Below, piece after piece: positions 17,319-26,361 of a stretch of DNA of 64,000 bases. The DNA comes from Crocinitomicaceae bacterium (GTDB lineage Bacteria; Bacteroidota; Bacteroidia; Flavobacteriales_G; Salibacteraceae), in contig PAVO01000023.1 in NCBI GenBank assembly GCA_002713215.1, positions 1 through 64,000 of the forward strand, in the 5' to 3' direction. The position numbers and the translations under genes were made by a program. Every line of letters starts with the position of its first letter. Within the stretch, counting starts at the first letter, position 1. Under the pieces are notes generated by a model. The model ran no database searches. It was not told where the DNA came from and was given only the letters and a program-made list of their open reading frames with translations.

Positions 17319-20300
17319 ATGATTCGTAAAATATTTTGCGCCATTATAGCATTTGCTTTTATTGGCCAGGTTTCAGCCCAATTACCTTATCTAATTATCG
17401 AAGAAACGGATACGACTATCGATGCAGATAAGTACAATAAATACATTTTAAATCATCCATATACTACAAGAACTCCTTTGCTAAAGGAGGATTTGAAAAA
17501 AATGGATAAAAAGGATCGTCCTGATTTGGCCTATGAACATGACTGGCTTATGACGCATGATCCGACAGATGGGAAAATACATTGGGAGCGATTAATCCCG
17601 GTGTTGAAGCAAATGAACACCAAACAGGTTCAAACCGTTGCTCCCGGCGGTAGTGCGGCTAATGCCTGGACCGAAAGAGGCCCTAACAATGTTGGGGGAA
17701 GGGTTCGGGCTATGATGTTTGACCCCACGGACAATACCAATAAAAAAGTTTTTGCCGGTGGAGTTGGCGGAGGTCTATGGTACAACAATGACATTACCAG
17801 CAATTCTTCGTCATGGGTAGCGGTTAACGACTTCTGGGCCAATCTTGCAGTTTCTGCAATGGATTATGACCCAACAAGCACCAGTACTTTTTATGTTGGG
17901 ACCGGTGAAGGTTTTGGTAACGCCGATGCAATGCGTGGAGCAGGTGTCTGGAAGTCTACCAACAAAGGGGCATCATGGACTCAGCTTGCATCTACTAATA
18001 ACTCCAGCTTTAGGTATGTTTTAGACCTAAAAGTTACAAGCACCGGGCGAGTTGTAGTTGCCAGTAGTGGTGGACTTTATACCTCCGATAACGGCGGGAC
18101 CTCATTTACCAGAAGAATTTCAACTTCTTATGTTGGAGATATTGAAATCGCTTCAAACGGTGATCTTTATGCCTCTACCCGGGCATCCGGACGGGTTTAT
18201 AAATCAACCAATAATGGTACTAGCTGGTCTACTATAACTCCAAGTGGCACTTCCGCCCGTAGGGTTGAACTGGCCTGTGCGCCATCCGATTCGAATACAA
18301 TATATGGTATTGGTGGAGCAACTACTTCTTCCAATACCGATATCTCCTGGTTTAAAAAGAGTACAAATGGTGGAGTATCCTGGACCAACCTTACTATTCC
18401 TAAATATGCCAGCAACACCTCCTACCACTTTACAAGAAAACAAGCCTGGTACGATTTAATCCTTTGGGTTCACCCCACAAACAAAAACATGGTAGTTGCC
18501 GGTGGTATTGACTTACATAGAACTACCAATGGTGGAAGCACATGGTCTCCGGTTTCTTATTGGAATACATCTCAATGGCCACTTCCTGAAGTACATGCTG
18601 ATCAACACATGATATTGTCACGACCCGGAAACAACAATGAGGTAATAATTGGAAACGATGGCGGAGTCTACTATTCAACCAATTTGGGGAATTCGAGTAC
18701 TTCAGCTCCAACTTATTCCCATAGGGTTAGAAACTTTAATGTAACCCAGTTTTATAGTGCTGCAATACACCCTACAGCGGGATCGAATGTAATGGTTGCA
18801 GGAGCTCAGGATAATGGAACCATTAAACTAAGCAGTGCCGGTGCTGGTTCCGGTACAGAAATTACGGGTGGTGATGGTGCTTTTTGCTTTATTGATCAAA
18901 ACAACTCCAGTGTGTTTATAACGTCTTACGTTTATAACAACTGGCGAAGAAGCACCAATTCTGGAAGTTCTTTTAACTACCTCCCATCGGACAATACGGG
19001 ACGGTTTATAAATCCGGCAGACTATGATGACAATTTGAATATTCTGTATGCGGCAAAAACCTCAACCACTATAAAAAGAATAACGAACATGACCGGAAGC
19101 TATTCCGCAACCGATGTAACGGTTAGCTCACTGGGAGGAACTCCAACTCACATTCGGGTTTCACCTTATACCACTACATCAACCACCCTGTTTGTTGGTG
19201 CAAGCAGTGATGTGTATAAGATCACTAATGCCAACACCACACCTTCAGTTTCTAAAATCACTCCTTCTTCCTTTCCAAACGAATACATCAGCTGTGTTGA
19301 AGTAGGGGCCAGTGAAAATGAGTTACTTGTTACGTTTTCAAGTTACGGTGGACAAGAAGTTTACTATACTTCAAACGGAGGAACAAACTGGTCTAACAAA
19401 TCCGGAAACTTACCGGATATGCCCATTCGCTGGGCGCTATTTAACCCTAAGAACAGAAAGGAAGTTATTGTTGCCACCGAGTTAGGGGTGTGGGCAACTT
19501 CCGATATAACGGCATCTTCTCCAACCTGGACTGCTTCTAACAATGGATTGGCCAATACCCGTGTTGACATGCTTCAATACCGTGCATCGGATTCTACAAT
19601 AATGGCTTCTACACATGGTCGTGGAGTATTTACCGGACGGTTTAAAGCACAAACTTCAACCAAACCGGTAGCATCATTTACCGCAAGCAAGGATACCGTG
19701 TGTGTAAGTGAGCTAGTAACTTATACCAGCACGTCTACCAATAGTCCAACTACTACAACCTGGACCTTTTCAGGAGGAAGCCCCGGCTCAGGTAGCGGCA
19801 CAACAGCAACAACAACTTATTTTACATCTGGATTAAAATCGGTAACCCTATTTGTGTCAAATTCCAGCGGCTCTGATACCAAAGTCCAATCGTTGGTTTA
19901 TGTCATGAGTAATCCAACAGCTTCTATATCCTCAATTAGTTCCTTATGTGTAACCGATCCGGCTATTGTATTAACTCAGGGGTCTCCCAGTGGCGGTATT
20001 TACTCAGGAACCGGTGTAAGTGGTGGCATGTTTAATCCACTAACCGCTGGTGTTGGTACGCATACCATAAAATACAAGCTAACCAATGGTGCTGGCTGTT
20101 CAGATAGCGCTACAACAACGGTCACCGTAACCAATCGGCCTGCAGCAAGTGCCAGCTCAATTCCTCCCGTGTGTTCTAATGCACCTTCATTCGCTCTCTC
20201 CAATGGAAGCCCGACCGGGGGTACTTATTCAGGCACGGGAGTTTCTGGTGGAGTGTTTAACCCTTCTGCCGCTGGTCCAGGAATACATACTATTAATTAT

Positions 20301-23129
20301 ATCTATGGAAGCGCCACATGTCGGGACACGGCAACGTTTTCGATCGTGGTAAATGCTGCTCCAAACGTTACATTAGGCTCCATCGGCCCATTCTGTACAA
20401 CACAAGGAAATCAAACACTAACTCAAGGTTCTCCTTCAGGCGGTGTATATTCTGGCACAGGAGTCAGTGGAGGTAATTTTAATCCATCCACCGCCGGGGC
20501 CGGTAATCATACCATAAAATATGTGGTAACCAATAGCAACGGCTGTAAAGACAGTGCAACAACTACGGTTACTGTTTCAAACGGAATCACTGCATCGGCA
20601 AGTAGCGTACCTAATCAATGCTCTAATGCAGCTTCTTTCACCTTGACCAATGGAAGCCCAACCGGAGGAACCTATTCGGGAACTGGAGTAAGTTCCGGTT
20701 CATTTAATCCTGCTACAGCTGGACCAGGGACACATAGTATTAAATATGTAGTTGGTGCCGGTTCATGTAAAGATTCCACCACGTTTAATATTGTTGTAAA
20801 TGCCGCTCCAACTGTAACACTTTCATCAATAGGGCCTTTTTGTACAACGGACCCTGTACAGTCATTAACCCAGGGATCACCATTGGGTGGAACCTATTCC
20901 GGAACAGGTGTTACCGGATCCAACTTTTCACCCAGTACAGCTGGAGTTGGAAATCATACGATAAAATATGTGGTAACTAATAGCAACGGTTGCAAAGACT
21001 CTGCAACTACAACGGTTAACGTGACAAGCGGAGCAACTGCATCTGCGAGTATTGTACCTAATCAATGCTCCAATTCTGCTTCTTTCACTTTAACCAATGG
21101 AAGCCCAACCGGGGGAACCTATTCCGGAACTGGAGTCTTAGCAGGCGCATTTAACCCGTCTGCTGCAGGAGTCGGTACACATACCATTAAGTATGTAATC
21201 GGGTCTGGCTCATGTAAAGACTCTACTACTTTCACCATTGTGGTAGATTCAGCTCCTAATGTGACATTTGCTTCGATTGGTCCGTTTTGTTCTTCTGATC
21301 CAACCCAAACACTAACCCAGGGTTCTCCCTCCGGTGGTGTATATTCTGGTACAGGAGTTAGCGGAAATACATTTTCACCAAGTACGGCTGGTGTCGGGTC
21401 ACATACGCTAAAATATGTGGTTACCAATAGTAAAGGATGTAAAGATTCTGCAACAACTACAGCTCAGGTTAGTAATGGCATTACCCCAACACTTGGTTCT
21501 TTTTCACCCGTATGTGAAAGTGATGCAGCATTTAATTTAACCGGAGGCTCCCCTTCCGGTGGTACTTATTCAGGTGTCGGGGTCAGTCGTGGTAAGTTTG
21601 ATCCAGCTGTTGCAGGTGCGGGAACGCATACCATTTCGTATACCCATCCTTTAGCGTGTAGCGGAGTTAAGGCGACCTCAACCATTCTTGTAGATTCGGG
21701 TCCCAATATCAGTATCACTGCTGATACTTCCGTTTGCTTAGGTAGCTCGGTTCAGCTGAGTGCTTCTGGTGGGTCTTCTTACGTATGGACGCCTGGATCT
21801 TCATTAAATGACTCTACCATAGCCATGCCTTTTGCTTCACCATTAAAAACAACAACATACAGTGTATCCGCATCCAGTTCAAATGGTTGTAAGGCAAGCA
21901 AATCGGTCAAAGTTACCGTTGAGCCTCTTCCAAAGGTTGATGCCGGTAAAGACAACACAACCTGCCAGGGTACTCCATATCAGTTAGGTGCCAGTGGTGC
22001 TAATTCATACATTTGGTCTCCTTCCACGGGACTCTCAAGTACTATAATAAGTAACCCGGTGGCAACCCTAAGCAACTCTCAATTATATGTTGTTTTAGGA
22101 ACAGGAGTAAATGGTTGTTCAAATGCCGACTCTGTGCTGATAACGGTTTTGTCAAAACCTAATGCTTCAATGGACTCGTTGGCAGATGTCTGTGTAAAAG
22201 CAAGCTCATTTGCACTTACTGGTGGTAAACCGGCTGGTGGAACTTATTCCGGTACAGGGGTAACAGGTGGTTCCTTTAGCCCTGGTACCGCTGGAACAGG
22301 AAGCCATACCATTATCTATACTGTATCCAATGGCAAGTGTTCTAGCTCTGTTAGCACGGTGCAAAAAGTAGTTTCAAGTCCTGCAATTGCCTGGACAACC
22401 AAGCTCACATACTGCGATAACGAGTCGGCCGTAACCCCAAGTGCCAATCCTGCCGGTGGTGTATTTTCAGGAAGTGCAATAAACAATGGAATGATTGACC
22501 CCGTAAAACTAGGTGCGGGTCGCTTCGAAATTCTGTATGACTACAGTGACCCTAATGGCTGTGAGGCAAAAGAGACGAAGGAAGTTGTTGTGCACCCAAC
22601 CACACCCGTTGATTCCATTCGAGGAATATTCCGTGCAGTTATTAATAAAACCTATAGTTATAACGTGACTGCGGTTAATGGCTCAAGTTATTTGTGGACT
22701 GTTAAAGGAGGTAGTGTTCAGTTTAAAAGCGCTAATACAATTACCATTAAATGGGGCTTAGGTCCAAAAGGATTCCTTCATTTAATACAAACCAACCAGT
22801 TTGGTTGCGTGGACAGTACTGATGCTGAAGTACTTCTTGGGCCACTTGGTAATGAAGAGGTTTCATTTAACAGTGGTAAATTGACTTTATTCCCAAATCC
22901 GGTAAGCGATGTGTTGAACGTTAAATTAACTGATTTGGAAAACCTTGATGAATTGGATTACCAAATTGTAAACCTGGAGGGGAAAGCTGTTGTTTCAGGT
23001 AGTCTGGAGGTTACCCGTAAAATGGAGACCTTTAAAATTGACTTGTCGGCGCTATCACCCGGTGTTTATTTCTTCCAAACCGGAGAAGGTGAAAGTCAGG
23101 TAATGAAACCTGTTGTAATCAACAAGTAG
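17319..23129 (+). CDS. Giant T9SS-secreted protein: Asp-box propeller, PKD, tandem repeats, sorting domain
   Basis: A 1936-residue protein. A signal peptide (1-21) is followed by a propeller-like region (about 110-780) with at least six Asp-box/BNR motifs of the form STNGGxSW (near residues 212, 293, 345 and 684, for example). Next come a PKD-like domain (about 785-865), eight tandem modules of 74-75 residues (about 866-1460), two Ig-like modules, two divergent copies of the repeat (near 1640 and 1710), and a C-terminal type A T9SS sorting domain from about 1855 (LTLFPNPVSDVLNVKL). It should be exported across the outer membrane and anchored or released. The propeller could bind or cleave glycans or proteins, but no catalytic set is identifiable. 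No frameshift was seen. Confidence 0.92.
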   Translation: MIRKIFCAIIAFAFIGQVSAQLPYLIIEETDTTIDADKYNKYILNHPYTTRTPLLKEDLKKMDKKDRPDLAYEHDWLMTHDPTDGKIHWERLIPVLKQMNTKQVQTVAPGGSAANAWTERGPNNVGGRVRAMMFDPTDNTNKKVFAGGVGGGLWYNNDITSNSSSWVAVNDFWANLAVSAMDYDPTSTSTFYVGTGEGFGNADAMRGAGVWKSTNKGASWTQLASTNNSSFRYVLDLKVTSTGRVVVASSGGLYTSDNGGTSFTRRISTSYVGDIEIASNGDLYASTRASGRVYKSTNNGTSWSTITPSGTSARRVELACAPSDSNTIYGIGGATTSSNTDISWFKKSTNGGVSWTNLTIPKYASNTSYHFTRKQAWYDLILWVHPTNKNMVVAGGIDLHRTTNGGSTWSPVSYWNTSQWPLPEVHADQHMILSRPGNNNEVIIGNDGGVYYSTNLGNSSTSAPTYSHRVRNFNVTQFYSAAIHPTAGSNVMVAGAQDNGTIKLSSAGAGSGTEITGGDGAFCFIDQNNSSVFITSYVYNNWRRSTNSGSSFNYLPSDNTGRFINPADYDDNLNILYAAKTSTTIKRITNMTGSYSATDVTVSSLGGTPTHIRVSPYTTTSTTLFVGASSDVYKITNANTTPSVSKITPSSFPNEYISCVEVGASENELLVTFSSYGGQEVYYTSNGGTNWSNKSGNLPDMPIRWALFNPKNRKEVIVATELGVWATSDITASSPTWTASNNGLANTRVDMLQYRASDSTIMASTHGRGVFTGRFKAQTSTKPVASFTASKDTVCVSELVTYTSTSTNSPTTTTWTFSGGSPGSGSGTTATTTYFTSGLKSVTLFVSNSSGSDTKVQSLVYVMSNPTASISSISSLCVTDPAIVLTQGSPSGGIYSGTGVSGGMFNPLTAGVGTHTIKYKLTNGAGCSDSATTTVTVTNRPAASASSIPPVCSNAPSFALSNGSPTGGTYSGTGVSGGVFNPSAAGPGIHTINYIYGSATCRDTATFSIVVNAAPNVTLGSIGPFCTTQGNQTLTQGSPSGGVYSGTGVSGGNFNPSTAGAGNHTIKYVVTNSNGCKDSATTTVTVSNGITASASSVPNQCSNAASFTLTNGSPTGGTYSGTGVSSGSFNPATAGPGTHSIKYVVGAGSCKDSTTFNIVVNAAPTVTLSSIGPFCTTDPVQSLTQGSPLGGTYSGTGVTGSNFSPSTAGVGNHTIKYVVTNSNGCKDSATTTVNVTSGATASASIVPNQCSNSASFTLTNGSPTGGTYSGTGVLAGAFNPSAAGVGTHTIKYVIGSGSCKDSTTFTIVVDSAPNVTFASIGPFCSSDPTQTLTQGSPSGGVYSGTGVSGNTFSPSTAGVGSHTLKYVVTNSKGCKDSATTTAQVSNGITPTLGSFSPVCESDAAFNLTGGSPSGGTYSGVGVSRGKFDPAVAGAGTHTISYTHPLACSGVKATSTILVDSGPNISITADTSVCLGSSVQLSASGGSSYVWTPGSSLNDSTIAMPFASPLKTTTYSVSASSSNGCKASKSVKVTVEPLPKVDAGKDNTTCQGTPYQLGASGANSYIWSPSTGLSSTIISNPVATLSNSQLYVVLGTGVNGCSNADSVLITVLSKPNASMDSLADVCVKASSFALTGGKPAGGTYSGTGVTGGSFSPGTAGTGSHTIIYTVSNGKCSSSVSTVQKVVSSPAIAWTTKLTYCDNESAVTPSANPAGGVFSGSAINNGMIDPVKLGAGRFEILYDYSDPNGCEAKETKEVVVHPTTPVDSIRGIFRAVINKTYSYNVTAVNGSSYLWTVKGGSVQFKSANTITIKWGLGPKGFLHLIQTNQFGCVDSTDAEVLLGPLGNEEVSFNSGKLTLFPNPVSDVLNVKLTDLENLDELDYQIVNLEGKAVVSGSLEVTRKMETFKIDLSALSPGVYFFQTGEGESQVMKPVVINK
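19920..21700 (+). repeat. Tandem coding repeat with a 447-bp two-module period
   Basis: Eight modules centred on G-G-[TVI]-Y-S-G-[TV]-G-V start their SP[STL]GG codons at 19983, 20208, 20430, 20655, 20877, 21102, 21324 and 21549. The spacings alternate exactly 225, 222, 225, 222, 225, 222, 225. Odd modules end in NSNGCKDSATTT-like strands and even modules in GSCKDSTTF-like strands, so the unit of duplication is an A-B pair of 149 residues. Two more divergent copies lie near 22230 and 22445. Confidence 0.92.
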
Positions 23130-23143
23130 AACTCAAGGAAAGG

Positions 23144-23929
23144 TTAAAGGCTTCCGGTTCTACCTCCATCGACCGGAAGATTAACTCCATTGATGTAATT
23201 GGCAGCCGGGCTGGCTAAAAATGCAATAGCATTTGCGACCTCCTCAGGCTTACCAACCCTTTTCATGGGAACCTGATTGGCCATAGCCTGGAGTACATTT
23301 TCGGTAGAATCTCCTGTTTTTATTGCCTTGTTTTCAACGATGGAACTAAGCCTTGCGGTACTGGTAGCCCCAGGTAAAACATTGTTTACCGTAATATTGT
23401 ATTGACCCAGTTCATTCGCTAATGTCTTTGACCAGTTCGCAACGGCCCCCCTAATTGTATTGGAAACACCAAGCCCGCTTAATGGAATTTTAACAGAGGT
23501 TGAAATAACATTAATAATTCGGCCGTAACCTTCGGACTTCATTCCTGGTACAAGAGCGGTCGTCAGCAATTGGTTGCAAATAAGATGTTGATTAAATGCA
23601 CGTCGAAATTGATCGATATCTGCGTCAATCGCTAATCCTCCAGCCGGCCCTCCGGTATTATTAACTAAAATGCTATAGGCCATCCCAGTATCGGTCAGAT
23701 GGCTTTTTAGTACTTCTTCCAGTTTATCGGGATAATTAAAGTCAGCAACCAAATATTGATGATTTCCATGTTTAGGAAGCTTTGAAATTGCTTCTTTTAA
23801 TTTTTCCTCGTTTCGAGCAACCAAGGTAACATTAGCACCCAATTCCGACAACGCACATGCTGAAGCAAAACCAATGCCTTGTGTGCTTCCACACACCATG
23901 GCATTTTTTCCAGAAAGATCGAGGTTCAT
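23144..23929 (-). CDS. Short-chain dehydrogenase/reductase family protein, atypical active site
   Basis: A 261-residue Rossmann protein with the SDR cofactor motif GSTQGIG (residues 13-19), NNTGGPAGG where NNAG is usual, and the C-terminal G-x-x-L-P-V-DGG. The catalytic Tyr-x-x-x-Lys is missing: after the Ser of VISTSVKIPLSGLG the chain reads VSNTIRGA. SDRs with S-N-x-x-R at this place exist as a divergent FabG-like subgroup. Its ATG overlaps the metalloprotease stop by one base (TAATG), so the two are co-translated. Substrate unknown. Confidence 0.85.
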   Translation of the reverse strand: MNLDLSGKNAMVCGSTQGIGFASACALSELGANVTLVARNEEKLKEAISKLPKHGNHQYLVADFNYPDKLEEVLKSHLTDTGMAYSILVNNTGGPAGGLAIDADIDQFRRAFNQHLICNQLLTTALVPGMKSEGYGRIINVISTSVKIPLSGLGVSNTIRGAVANWSKTLANELGQYNITVNNVLPGATSTARLSSIVENKAIKTGDSTENVLQAMANQVPMKRVGKPEEVANAIAFLASPAANYINGVNLPVDGGRTGSL

Positions 23930-26361
23930 TATTCTACAACCAGTTTCTTAGAATATGACTTTCCATTAGCCACTAAGTTAACCACATAAATCCCAGCGGT
24001 TAATTCGCCTTGGGTAATTGTAACCAAAGAAGTTTCAGAAACCTCAGTGGCCCATACTTTTTGACCCTGAAGGGAATACACGTTTACTTGAATATTCGTA
24101 TTCAGCTCAGACTCCAACCTGATATTAACCTCACCTTGTGTCGGGTTTGGAAAGATGGCAAAAGTAAAATCCTCATTGGCCTGAATCGTATTATCAATAC
24201 CTACAGAAGAACCACCATCAATAAATTCTTTACCCTCTCCTGTGCCACTTACAGTAAACGTCCACACTTCACTCCAATTAGTAGATATACTACCTCTATG
24301 AGCTCTTACTCTCCAGTAATAAGAAGTGCTGGTATTCAGGTTTTTAGCATAAAATCGAGTGTCATCATTTAAAGGAGAGGCATTGATATAGTTCTTTTTG
24401 CCACTGTAAACAATGTTACTAAAATCACTTTTATCCGAAAGTTCATACTCATACTCATCGACAACCGGAACCGCCTTCCAATCAATGAATACACTACTTG
24501 CAACACTGTCCAGGTTATTAGTAGGGAATTCCAGTACAGGAACATCATCAAAGCTTCCACTCATATTAATGTTGTCTATAAAGAAATTATTATCCCCAAG
24601 GTTTTCCACTTCAAATTTGAACAGCCCATTTTGAACTTTATCCTTACCAATAAAGTTATTTACTGAGATCTTTATCCAATCCGAGTTTCCTTGTGGGAAA
24701 TACCCCAAATTGGTTTGTTTTCCATTGTTCAAACCAACGCTAACATTGCTGTATTTCAAATCCCAGGTTTCTCCACAATCGCTCGAATACAAAATTCGAA
24801 ATTTTGTCTGTCCCTTAAATGTTCCGGATGCACTTGAAGCATGGGCGATATACAGTGTCAACACAGGGCTTAGAATATTACTTAAATCAACCGGAGCACT
24901 TATTATTCCCTCTACTTGATTAAATATGTTCTTGCTGTTTTCAAGCATTAAATAGTTATTTCCTGTAAAGGCGTTTCCATCGGCAACCTTCCAAAAAATG
25001 GTGTCGTTGTCTTCATTTTCCACGGCCCAGTTAAAAGAAACAGATTCTGTGCTTCCTTCAAAACTCTCAATGAAAGGAAGAAAGTCTCCAACACTTTTGT
25101 TTACAACAATGTAATCGGAAACCGTTTTTATTTTTTTGTTACCCATTGCATCAGTAACCGTAAGTTTAACATTATAGGTTCCTGGCCTGACATAGCTAAC
25201 AGAAGGGTCTTTTACATTCGATGTTGATGGCGAACCACCTTCGAACTCCCACTTCCAGGTTACGGCACCATAAGGAGACATATCTTTATATTGAACCACT
25301 TCATTAATACAAACGGCTTTTTTATGGCTTGAGAATTCAGCAACATCAAGGTCTAATACACCTGCTTTTCTGTTATTAGTTGTAGAAACCAGTTGGTTTC
25401 TCTGTGCTGTTCCTGAATTTAGAGCAGCTCTCATTCTAGACACCTGACCTTGGGTAAACATATTAGTGCAATAAGAGTATTCCATGAAGTTTTGAACGTT
25501 ATCAAAAGTCCCACATGAAATTCCATTTGTATTACAAGTTCTCCATCCTATTGTAAGTGGTGTGTCACCAACACCATCATCAATGCTACAATTGGAACTT
25601 AGCCCAGGTGTATTAGAACCTCCCCATGGGTGTGGTAAGTTTAACCAATGACCTACTTCATGGGTTAGTGCTCGCGACCTTCTGTCGTTTCCGGTTCTTA
25701 CGGAAGCAAAATAGGTATAGAGCAAAATAATTCCATCCTTGGACGCTCTAAAGTGTGCAGTACTTGGCAAAAAGGTATAACCAGCGGCTCCACTACCAAT
25801 ACTTTTTGCAATCCATACGTTTAAGTATGTGCTTCTTGGCCAAGGATTAAGCTTCGAGTTTTCACCTGCATTATTTGTTCGGCTCGTATAAATTCTGTCA
25901 ATACCAGTTGTCGGGTTTCCCTGAGGGTCTCGTCTTGCCAGACGAAATTCAATTTTAGCGTCCCCGGTAATGTTCTTGAACCTGGAAACTACTTGATCCA
26001 AATCATCATTTATCATTTGAAAGTCCTCATTCAAAATGCGCACAGCATCATGAATCTCTGTGTCTGTAACATTCTCCGGACCACCTTCATGAAGAATATG
26101 AAATACCACGGGAATAATATAATCTACATCGGCCCTTGAGGAGTTAAGGTGTTCATTAGCAATATACTCTTTGGTAAAAGCCTCTAGTTTAGCCTCTTCG
26201 GCATCAATTTTTGGTGCTAGTTCCGGATACATCTTTTTAATTGTTTCCGTAAGCATTATGTCATCTTCGACAAATGGTTCGTGATGATCGTGCTGAGCAA
26301 ATCCTACTACAGCCATCAGGCTGAATAAAGCTAATAATTTAATTCTCATATTAATTCTCAT
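23929..26361 (-). CDS. T9SS-secreted M43 (cytophagalysin-like) zinc metalloprotease
   Basis: An 810-residue secreted protease. A signal peptide ends GFAQ; a propeptide-like region follows. The zinc site HEVGHWLNLPHPWG is near residue 232 and the Met-turn region FMEYSYC near 290, both typical of M43 metzincins. A PKD domain (about 365-425), a MAM/carbohydrate-binding-like beta region (about 430-620), an Fn3-like module (about 625-715) and a T9SS type A sorting domain (from about 737, FAIFPNPTQGEVNIRL) follow. Two in-frame ATGs (26361, 26349) lie in a short direct repeat; either may be used. It lies upstream of and overlaps the SDR gene. Confidence 0.92.
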   Translation of the reverse strand: MRINMRIKLLALFSLMAVVGFAQHDHHEPFVEDDIMLTETIKKMYPELAPKIDAEEAKLEAFTKEYIANEHLNSSRADVDYIIPVVFHILHEGGPENVTDTEIHDAVRILNEDFQMINDDLDQVVSRFKNITGDAKIEFRLARRDPQGNPTTGIDRIYTSRTNNAGENSKLNPWPRSTYLNVWIAKSIGSGAAGYTFLPSTAHFRASKDGIILLYTYFASVRTGNDRRSRALTHEVGHWLNLPHPWGGSNTPGLSSNCSIDDGVGDTPLTIGWRTCNTNGISCGTFDNVQNFMEYSYCTNMFTQGQVSRMRAALNSGTAQRNQLVSTTNNRKAGVLDLDVAEFSSHKKAVCINEVVQYKDMSPYGAVTWKWEFEGGSPSTSNVKDPSVSYVRPGTYNVKLTVTDAMGNKKIKTVSDYIVVNKSVGDFLPFIESFEGSTESVSFNWAVENEDNDTIFWKVADGNAFTGNNYLMLENSKNIFNQVEGIISAPVDLSNILSPVLTLYIAHASSASGTFKGQTKFRILYSSDCGETWDLKYSNVSVGLNNGKQTNLGYFPQGNSDWIKISVNNFIGKDKVQNGLFKFEVENLGDNNFFIDNINMSGSFDDVPVLEFPTNNLDSVASSVFIDWKAVPVVDEYEYELSDKSDFSNIVYSGKKNYINASPLNDDTRFYAKNLNTSTSYYWRVRAHRGSISTNWSEVWTFTVSGTGEGKEFIDGGSSVGIDNTIQANEDFTFAIFPNPTQGEVNIRLESELNTNIQVNVYSLQGQKVWATEVSETSLVTITQGELTAGIYVVNLVANGKSYSKKLVVE

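Follow-up and report, generated by a model that had tools for sequence, protein, structure and literature searches.

The protein encoded at 17319..23129 of the window (the whole 64,000-nt stretch of contig PAVO01000023.1 that was analysed) carries, between an N-terminal propeller and a C-terminal sorting domain, an array of small modules in which two sequence types alternate. We consider it probable (about 0.8) that this array forms part of the Ig-like stalk of a T9SS cargo and that a two-domain unit, duplicated in tandem long ago, accounts for its expansion. The A and B types are older than the duplications that multiplied them, and their copies have since diverged.

Domain organisation of the 1936-aa protein

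From N to C terminus, the ORF encodes a signal-like start, a propeller of ~677 aa, a PKD-like domain, twelve modules, a further stretch and a sorting domain. The features were located as follows:

17319..23129, + strand: ORF of 1936 aa, predicted T9SS cargo with a double propeller, a PKD, an Ig-like stalk and a sorting domain
17619..19649, + strand: residues 101-777, predicted double beta-propeller of GH74/sortilin type (AF2, Foldseek, VIA and profile matches)
19662..19892, + strand: residues 782-858, PKD-like domain (PF18911 25.5 bits, slightly below the cut-off of 27)
19917..20141, + strand: M1, type A, 75 aa (module identities, ML tree)
20142..20363, + strand: M2, type B, 74 aa (module identities, ML tree)
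20364..20588, + strand: M3, type A, 75 aa (identities, ML tree, AF2 Ig-like model of M3-M6)
20589..20810, + strand: M4, type B, 74 aa (identities, ML tree, AF2 model of M3-M6)
20811..21035, + strand: M5, type A, 75 aa (identities, ML tree, AF2 model of M3-M6)
21036..21257, + strand: M6, type B, 74 aa (identities, ML tree, AF2 model of M3-M6)
21258..21482, + strand: M7, type A, 75 aa (module identities, ML tree)
21483..21704, + strand: M8, type T (a third type, not B), 74 aa (47-52% identity to M1-M7; T clade 95/88)
21705..22160, + strand: M9 and M10, Ig_7 (CHU_C associated)-like, also with paired Cys (PF19081 26 bits, cut-off 27.3)
22161..22382, + strand: M11, type C, of the A/B family (module comparison, ML tree)
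22383..22598, + strand: M12, type D, distant family member (module comparison, ML tree)
22887..23120, + strand: residues 1857-1934, T9SS C-terminal sorting domain (PF18962, TIGR04183)

The sorting domain scored above both curated cut-offs (PF18962, 50 bits against 27; TIGR04183, 34.4 bits against 23) and the genome encodes T9SS machinery (SprA, TIGR04189, 2442 bits against a cut-off of 200). Judged by this domain and by SprA, the protein is a predicted T9SS type A cargo. PADLOC returned no match. The propeller was modelled with a pLDDT of 89.5; the best Foldseek matches of the model were GH74 enzymes (E 2e-25), VIA aligned 607 residues with 6p2m (Z 28.8), and sequence profiles matched GH74 (E 9e-26) and sortilins (E 6e-7). 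The model points to a double seven-bladed propeller, which has both its fold and detectable sequence similarity in common with GH74 xyloglucanases and sortilin (Vps10) propellers. An adjoining 810-aa ORF on the reverse strand (23929-26361) resembles a secreted zinc metalloprotease (HEVGHW motif); it also contains a PKD-like stretch, has a C-terminus that looks like a sorting domain and is probably a second T9SS cargo.

The twelve modules, each of ~75 aa with paired Cys, span residues 867-1760. The preliminary description had counted eight, which are the first eight of the twelve; the array does not end near 21700 but continues through M9-M12 (21705-22160 and 22161-22598).

Two module types alternate with a period of 447 nt

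The eight modules start at 19917, 20142, 20364, 20589, 20811, 21036, 21258 and 21483, which reproduced the spacings of 225, 222, 225, 222, 225, 222 and 225 nt proposed for the eight-module array (19917-21704). Its strongest DNA period was 447 nt, with 66% ungapped identity as compared to 61% at 894 nt, 40% at 225 nt and 36% at 222 nt. When codons were shuffled (50 shuffles, all lags), identity at the best lag averaged 33% and reached 34% at most. In a sliding comparison at 149 residues, similarity was high from about residue 885 to 1225 and dropped sharply where module 6 meets module 8.

The grouping into odd and even modules was recovered for modules 1-7 (A-B-A-B-A-B-A), in which pairings were not equally similar: like types shared 60-81% of their residues and unlike types 47-53%. 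Protein identity was 60-79% among the A modules (M1, M3, M5, M7) and 66-81% among the B modules (M2, M4, M6). Identity between modules was 69% at lag 2 versus 49% at lag 1, an excess reached in 0.2-0.4% of module-order shuffles (P 0.002-0.004). The residues found in A and B did not overlap at diagnostic positions 4, 10 and 67. The linker ends also differed (mostly NG-x in A, A[AK]P in B), and both these ends and the A/B order were conserved across seven species. The grouping failed for module 8. Its assignment to B was ruled out by its identity of 47-52% to each of M1-M7 and by its place in the T clade; its length of 74 aa arose from compensating indels, and the resemblance to the length of B is coincidental.

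The copies are old

Recent duplication had been put forward as one reason for the strict length. This was rejected on synonymous divergence, four-fold sites and the length of exact matches. NG86 dS was above 1 or undefined for every A-A and B-B pair (dN 0.11-0.38), identity of like modules at four-fold sites was 0.21-0.54 and mostly near the chance expectation of 0.31, and exact matches at lag 447 were no longer than 20 nt, with DNA identities of 59-77% between like modules. No dN/dS value is quoted because dS was saturated; amino-acid change has clearly been slower than silent change in the A and B modules. The A and B copies in the window are old.

The number of B-A pairs differs among related species

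Propeller homologs were found in 34 of 35 genomes of the family, and the module in 15 of 80 named propeller loci. Seven relatives carry stalk modules at the same place; the loci among relatives include L088 (Flavobacteriales bacterium UBA6770), L095, L099 and L135. Module order was X-B-A-T-[two Ig_7-like positions]-C-D in three of these relatives (G032, G034, G009), X-B-A-B-A-T-[2]-C-D in two (G031, G033) and B-A-B-A-T-[2]-C-D in one (G008), as compared to A-B-A-B-A-B-A-T-[2]-C-D in the window. The seventh relative (G027) has thirteen modules that could not be sorted into A and B. Counted over seven species including the window, there are 1, 1, 1, 2, 2, 2 and 3 B-A pairs. Types A, B and T are found again in six related species, and the modules that flank the pairs are conserved.

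Types in the relatives were first assigned by eye and then checked by an ML tree of the modules from seven species. The B (97/90), T (95/88) and D (98/90) clades were supported, and A was weak (60/74). Type labels changed five times on this tree, which is the minimum, whereas shuffled labels gave a mean of 32 changes. Since A and B are separate types across related species, the difference between them is older than the amplification. That the three pairs of the window array arose solely in its own lineage had a p-AU of 0.31. The growth route first suggested, in which a two-module unit was duplicated, is supported by types that stay separate in seven species and by a pair number of 1-3. The array shows both marks of expansion by multi-domain units: a lag-2 peak beyond chance and a unit number that varies among relatives.

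The genome that contains the window also encodes a stalkless paralog (G000:C17:13090-15117, L053) that shares the propeller and the PKD-like part with the window protein and has 268 aa without modules after the propeller. The propeller tree places it as the sister of the window gene (100/99). Loss of the stalk in this paralog is the simplest reading because G031 and G033 branch outside the pair yet carry a stalk. Elsewhere, a propeller homolog of 3571 aa (L064/L150, G007:C2) shows module pairs at a spacing of ~312 aa, four times over, which may represent a super-repeat of four domains.

The modules are predicted to be Ig-like domains with a conserved Cys pair

Mixed-register alignments, in which MAFFT had shifted the repeats by one module, were left out of structure prediction. 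One of five AF2 models of M3-M6 was confident (pLDDT 92, pTM 0.62) and contained four repeated beta domains. Foldseek and VIA-align placed the tandem domains of GhpA and other Ig chains on top. The grappling-hook protein GhpA of Aureispira, also from the Bacteroidota (PDB 9flp and others), has tandem Ig-like domains as in the stalk model and was the best Foldseek match (E 1e-9, TM 0.49-0.59, 18-22% identity); the likeness is structural alone, and no sequence match to the modules was found at E up to 5. By sequence, a profile of 25 modules matched All3314/Cis19 in the PDB (7b5h, E 6.7e-12). This protein of the Anabaena contractile injection system (PMC8894136) is the only solved chain clearly similar in sequence to the profile, and its best stretch has paired Cys at places matching those of the module. 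Unlike the window protein, a predicted T9SS cargo, Cis19 is a crown component of the injection system, with three such stretches.

Two Cys per module, one early and one late, had been described and were found at about residue 11 and residues 59-61. Of 430 full-length modules, 428 contained both and 427 had exactly two Cys, counts that may include some selection because the modules were found by profile. The proposed cystine-bearing beta domain is well supported by the near-universal Cys pair and the Ig-like model, the disulfide itself being predicted. Periplasmic export makes an intradomain disulfide the natural inference, and each module is very likely held by one internal bond of this kind. 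Together with the model, this predicts an Ig-like beta-sandwich for every module, carrying a near-invariant pair of Cys.

None of 25 diverse modules alone reached a Pfam or NCBIfam cut-off, and the whole protein passes PF16403 solely through summed partial matches. The A and B modules did not match PF19081 (Ig_7), against which the M9-M12 stretch came close to the gathering cut-off.

Higher-order repeats in the module family

The module was matched at least 145 times in the genome of the window and was present in 87 of 295 class-level genomes at E <= 1e-20. Neighbouring modules across the family are spaced by 68-85 residues, with a mode of 75 (180 of 363). The set used for periodicity comprised 111 arrays with 747 modules, a non-random sample drawn from the best matches, and 51 runs of six or more modules were tested. 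Higher-order periodicity was significant at 0.05 in 8 of the 51 (four at lag 2, four at lag 3, none at lag 1), where two to three are expected by chance; in five of the eight, the observed value was reached by 0 of 2000 shuffles.

Growth in this family spans a range of ages. Locus L168 (G009:C1:498500-506500), in a related complete genome, has five copies of a three-module unit of 675 nt with 90-97% DNA identity. Here the higher-order repeat, built from the same module family, is truly recent, and the stalk is a candidate for length variation. Older three-module units are found at L169 and L243. At L258 (G082:C53:500-8500), the Ig-like module type is related but longer, and a two-module unit of ~164 aa repeats in copies that are 94-100% identical in protein sequence; this is an independent and recent A-B array. 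Single-module growth also occurs, as at L227, with five tandem single modules at 76-96%. Three contigs of the window genome (C21, C27 and C36 of G000) end inside arrays of the module, so assembly breaks are likely and copies perhaps miscounted in other stalk genes. A literature search for this T9SS module returned nothing specific.

Discussion

The stalk would consist of about twelve small Ig-like domains between a GH74/sortilin-type propeller and the sorting domain. Its ancestral order was probably roughly X-B-A-T-[two Ig_7-like]-C-D. In the window lineage, the B-A pair would have been tandemly duplicated to give three pairs and one extra A; since the A/B difference predates this amplification, the alternation was inherited. 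A tandem two-domain block may undergo unequal recombination at its own period, a presumed route by which whole pairs are added or removed, and later divergence would freeze the alternating pattern. The lengths of 75 and 74 aa may simply be the loop length of each type, with no mechanical requirement. From the domain order, the stalk presumably acts as a spacer. The earlier proposal of a rod that holds the propeller away from the cell surface fits this order, given the sorting domain and the SprA encoded in the genome.

This mode of growth is ordinary for domain arrays. Across 24 proteomes, with repeats mostly eukaryotic, domain repeats were found to expand mostly by several domains at once, two being the commonest unit (Bjorklund, Ekman, Elofsson 2006, PMC1553488). 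In those repeats and in the window array alike, similarity is highest at a domain distance of two. Unlike that survey, the case described here is a bacterial T9SS stalk in which the unit could be traced across related species.

A structural need for the strict length had been offered as the other reason for the 225/222-nt spacing. As a constraint on length this was rejected in view of the relatives and of the distribution of spacings across the family: the B modules of G031 and G033 have 75 aa and one A has 74 aa, and the two types are thus not bound to particular lengths of 75 and 74 aa. A stronger form holds that A and B make non-equivalent alternating joints and that the stalk works only as a strict A-B rod of fixed length, comparable to the E and G5 domains of SasG. 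The conservation of types, linker ends and order in seven species argues for it, as does a pair period of 149 residues kept in G031, G033 and one comparison with G008. We regard it as quite unlikely, since only one B-A pair, and hence no alternation, is present in three relatives, G031 and G033 have some of the lengths exchanged, M8 interrupts the alternation within the window array and most arrays of the same module do not alternate. Nor was the E-G5 make-up of SasG/Aap found: the SasG domains are single-layer sheets, whereas the model of the window modules has four Ig-like sandwich domains, and Pfam gave no G5 match in the 1936-aa protein. The alternation needs no structural explanation, and the distinct linker ends of A and B leave room for one. 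SasG resembles the window protein in alternating two domain kinds and, like other periscope proteins (PMC8201768, PMC4458895), in carrying an N-terminal domain on a tandem-domain stalk toward a surface-sorting C-terminus. It is highly improbable that the window stalk is itself such a length-variable protein, with pairs recombining today and strains differing in stalk length. Pair number does differ among species, and the sister paralog on C17 has the propeller and its short tail without modules. In periscope proteins the repeats are almost identical to one another and show variation within a species; the window copies lack this high DNA identity, and such diverged modules, with dS above 1 and so short an exact match, are now a poor substrate for recombination.

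The long-past copying of the A-B pair in tandem would itself be one case of a wider tendency if tandem Ig-like stalks of Bacteroidota preferentially fixed two- or three-module duplications, keeping neighbours different and limiting misfolding. All eight significantly periodic arrays have a period of 2 or 3 and none of 1, neighbours in the window array show the lowest similarity (49%) even though modules of like type reach 81%, and the misfolding of tandem domains is a known mechanism from the Ig domains of titin (PMC4660218). Against this, the absence of period 1 is not significant because the events are so few, and in most arrays neighbours are not less alike than expected. A general avoidance of similar neighbours is unsupported, L227 being a clear counter-example, and we hold the wider tendency to be unlikely. 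If true, it would make the A-B array one instance of a general rule that is testable across many T9SS stalks.

Collectively, the data provide a worked case of how a bacterial surface stalk may grow by block duplication of Ig-like domains. Stages of this process are found within one broad group of modules, from old (the window array) through intermediate (L169) to young (L168, L258). They also highlight a module that is widespread in Bacteroidota and whose single copies fall below the cut-offs of both domain databases.
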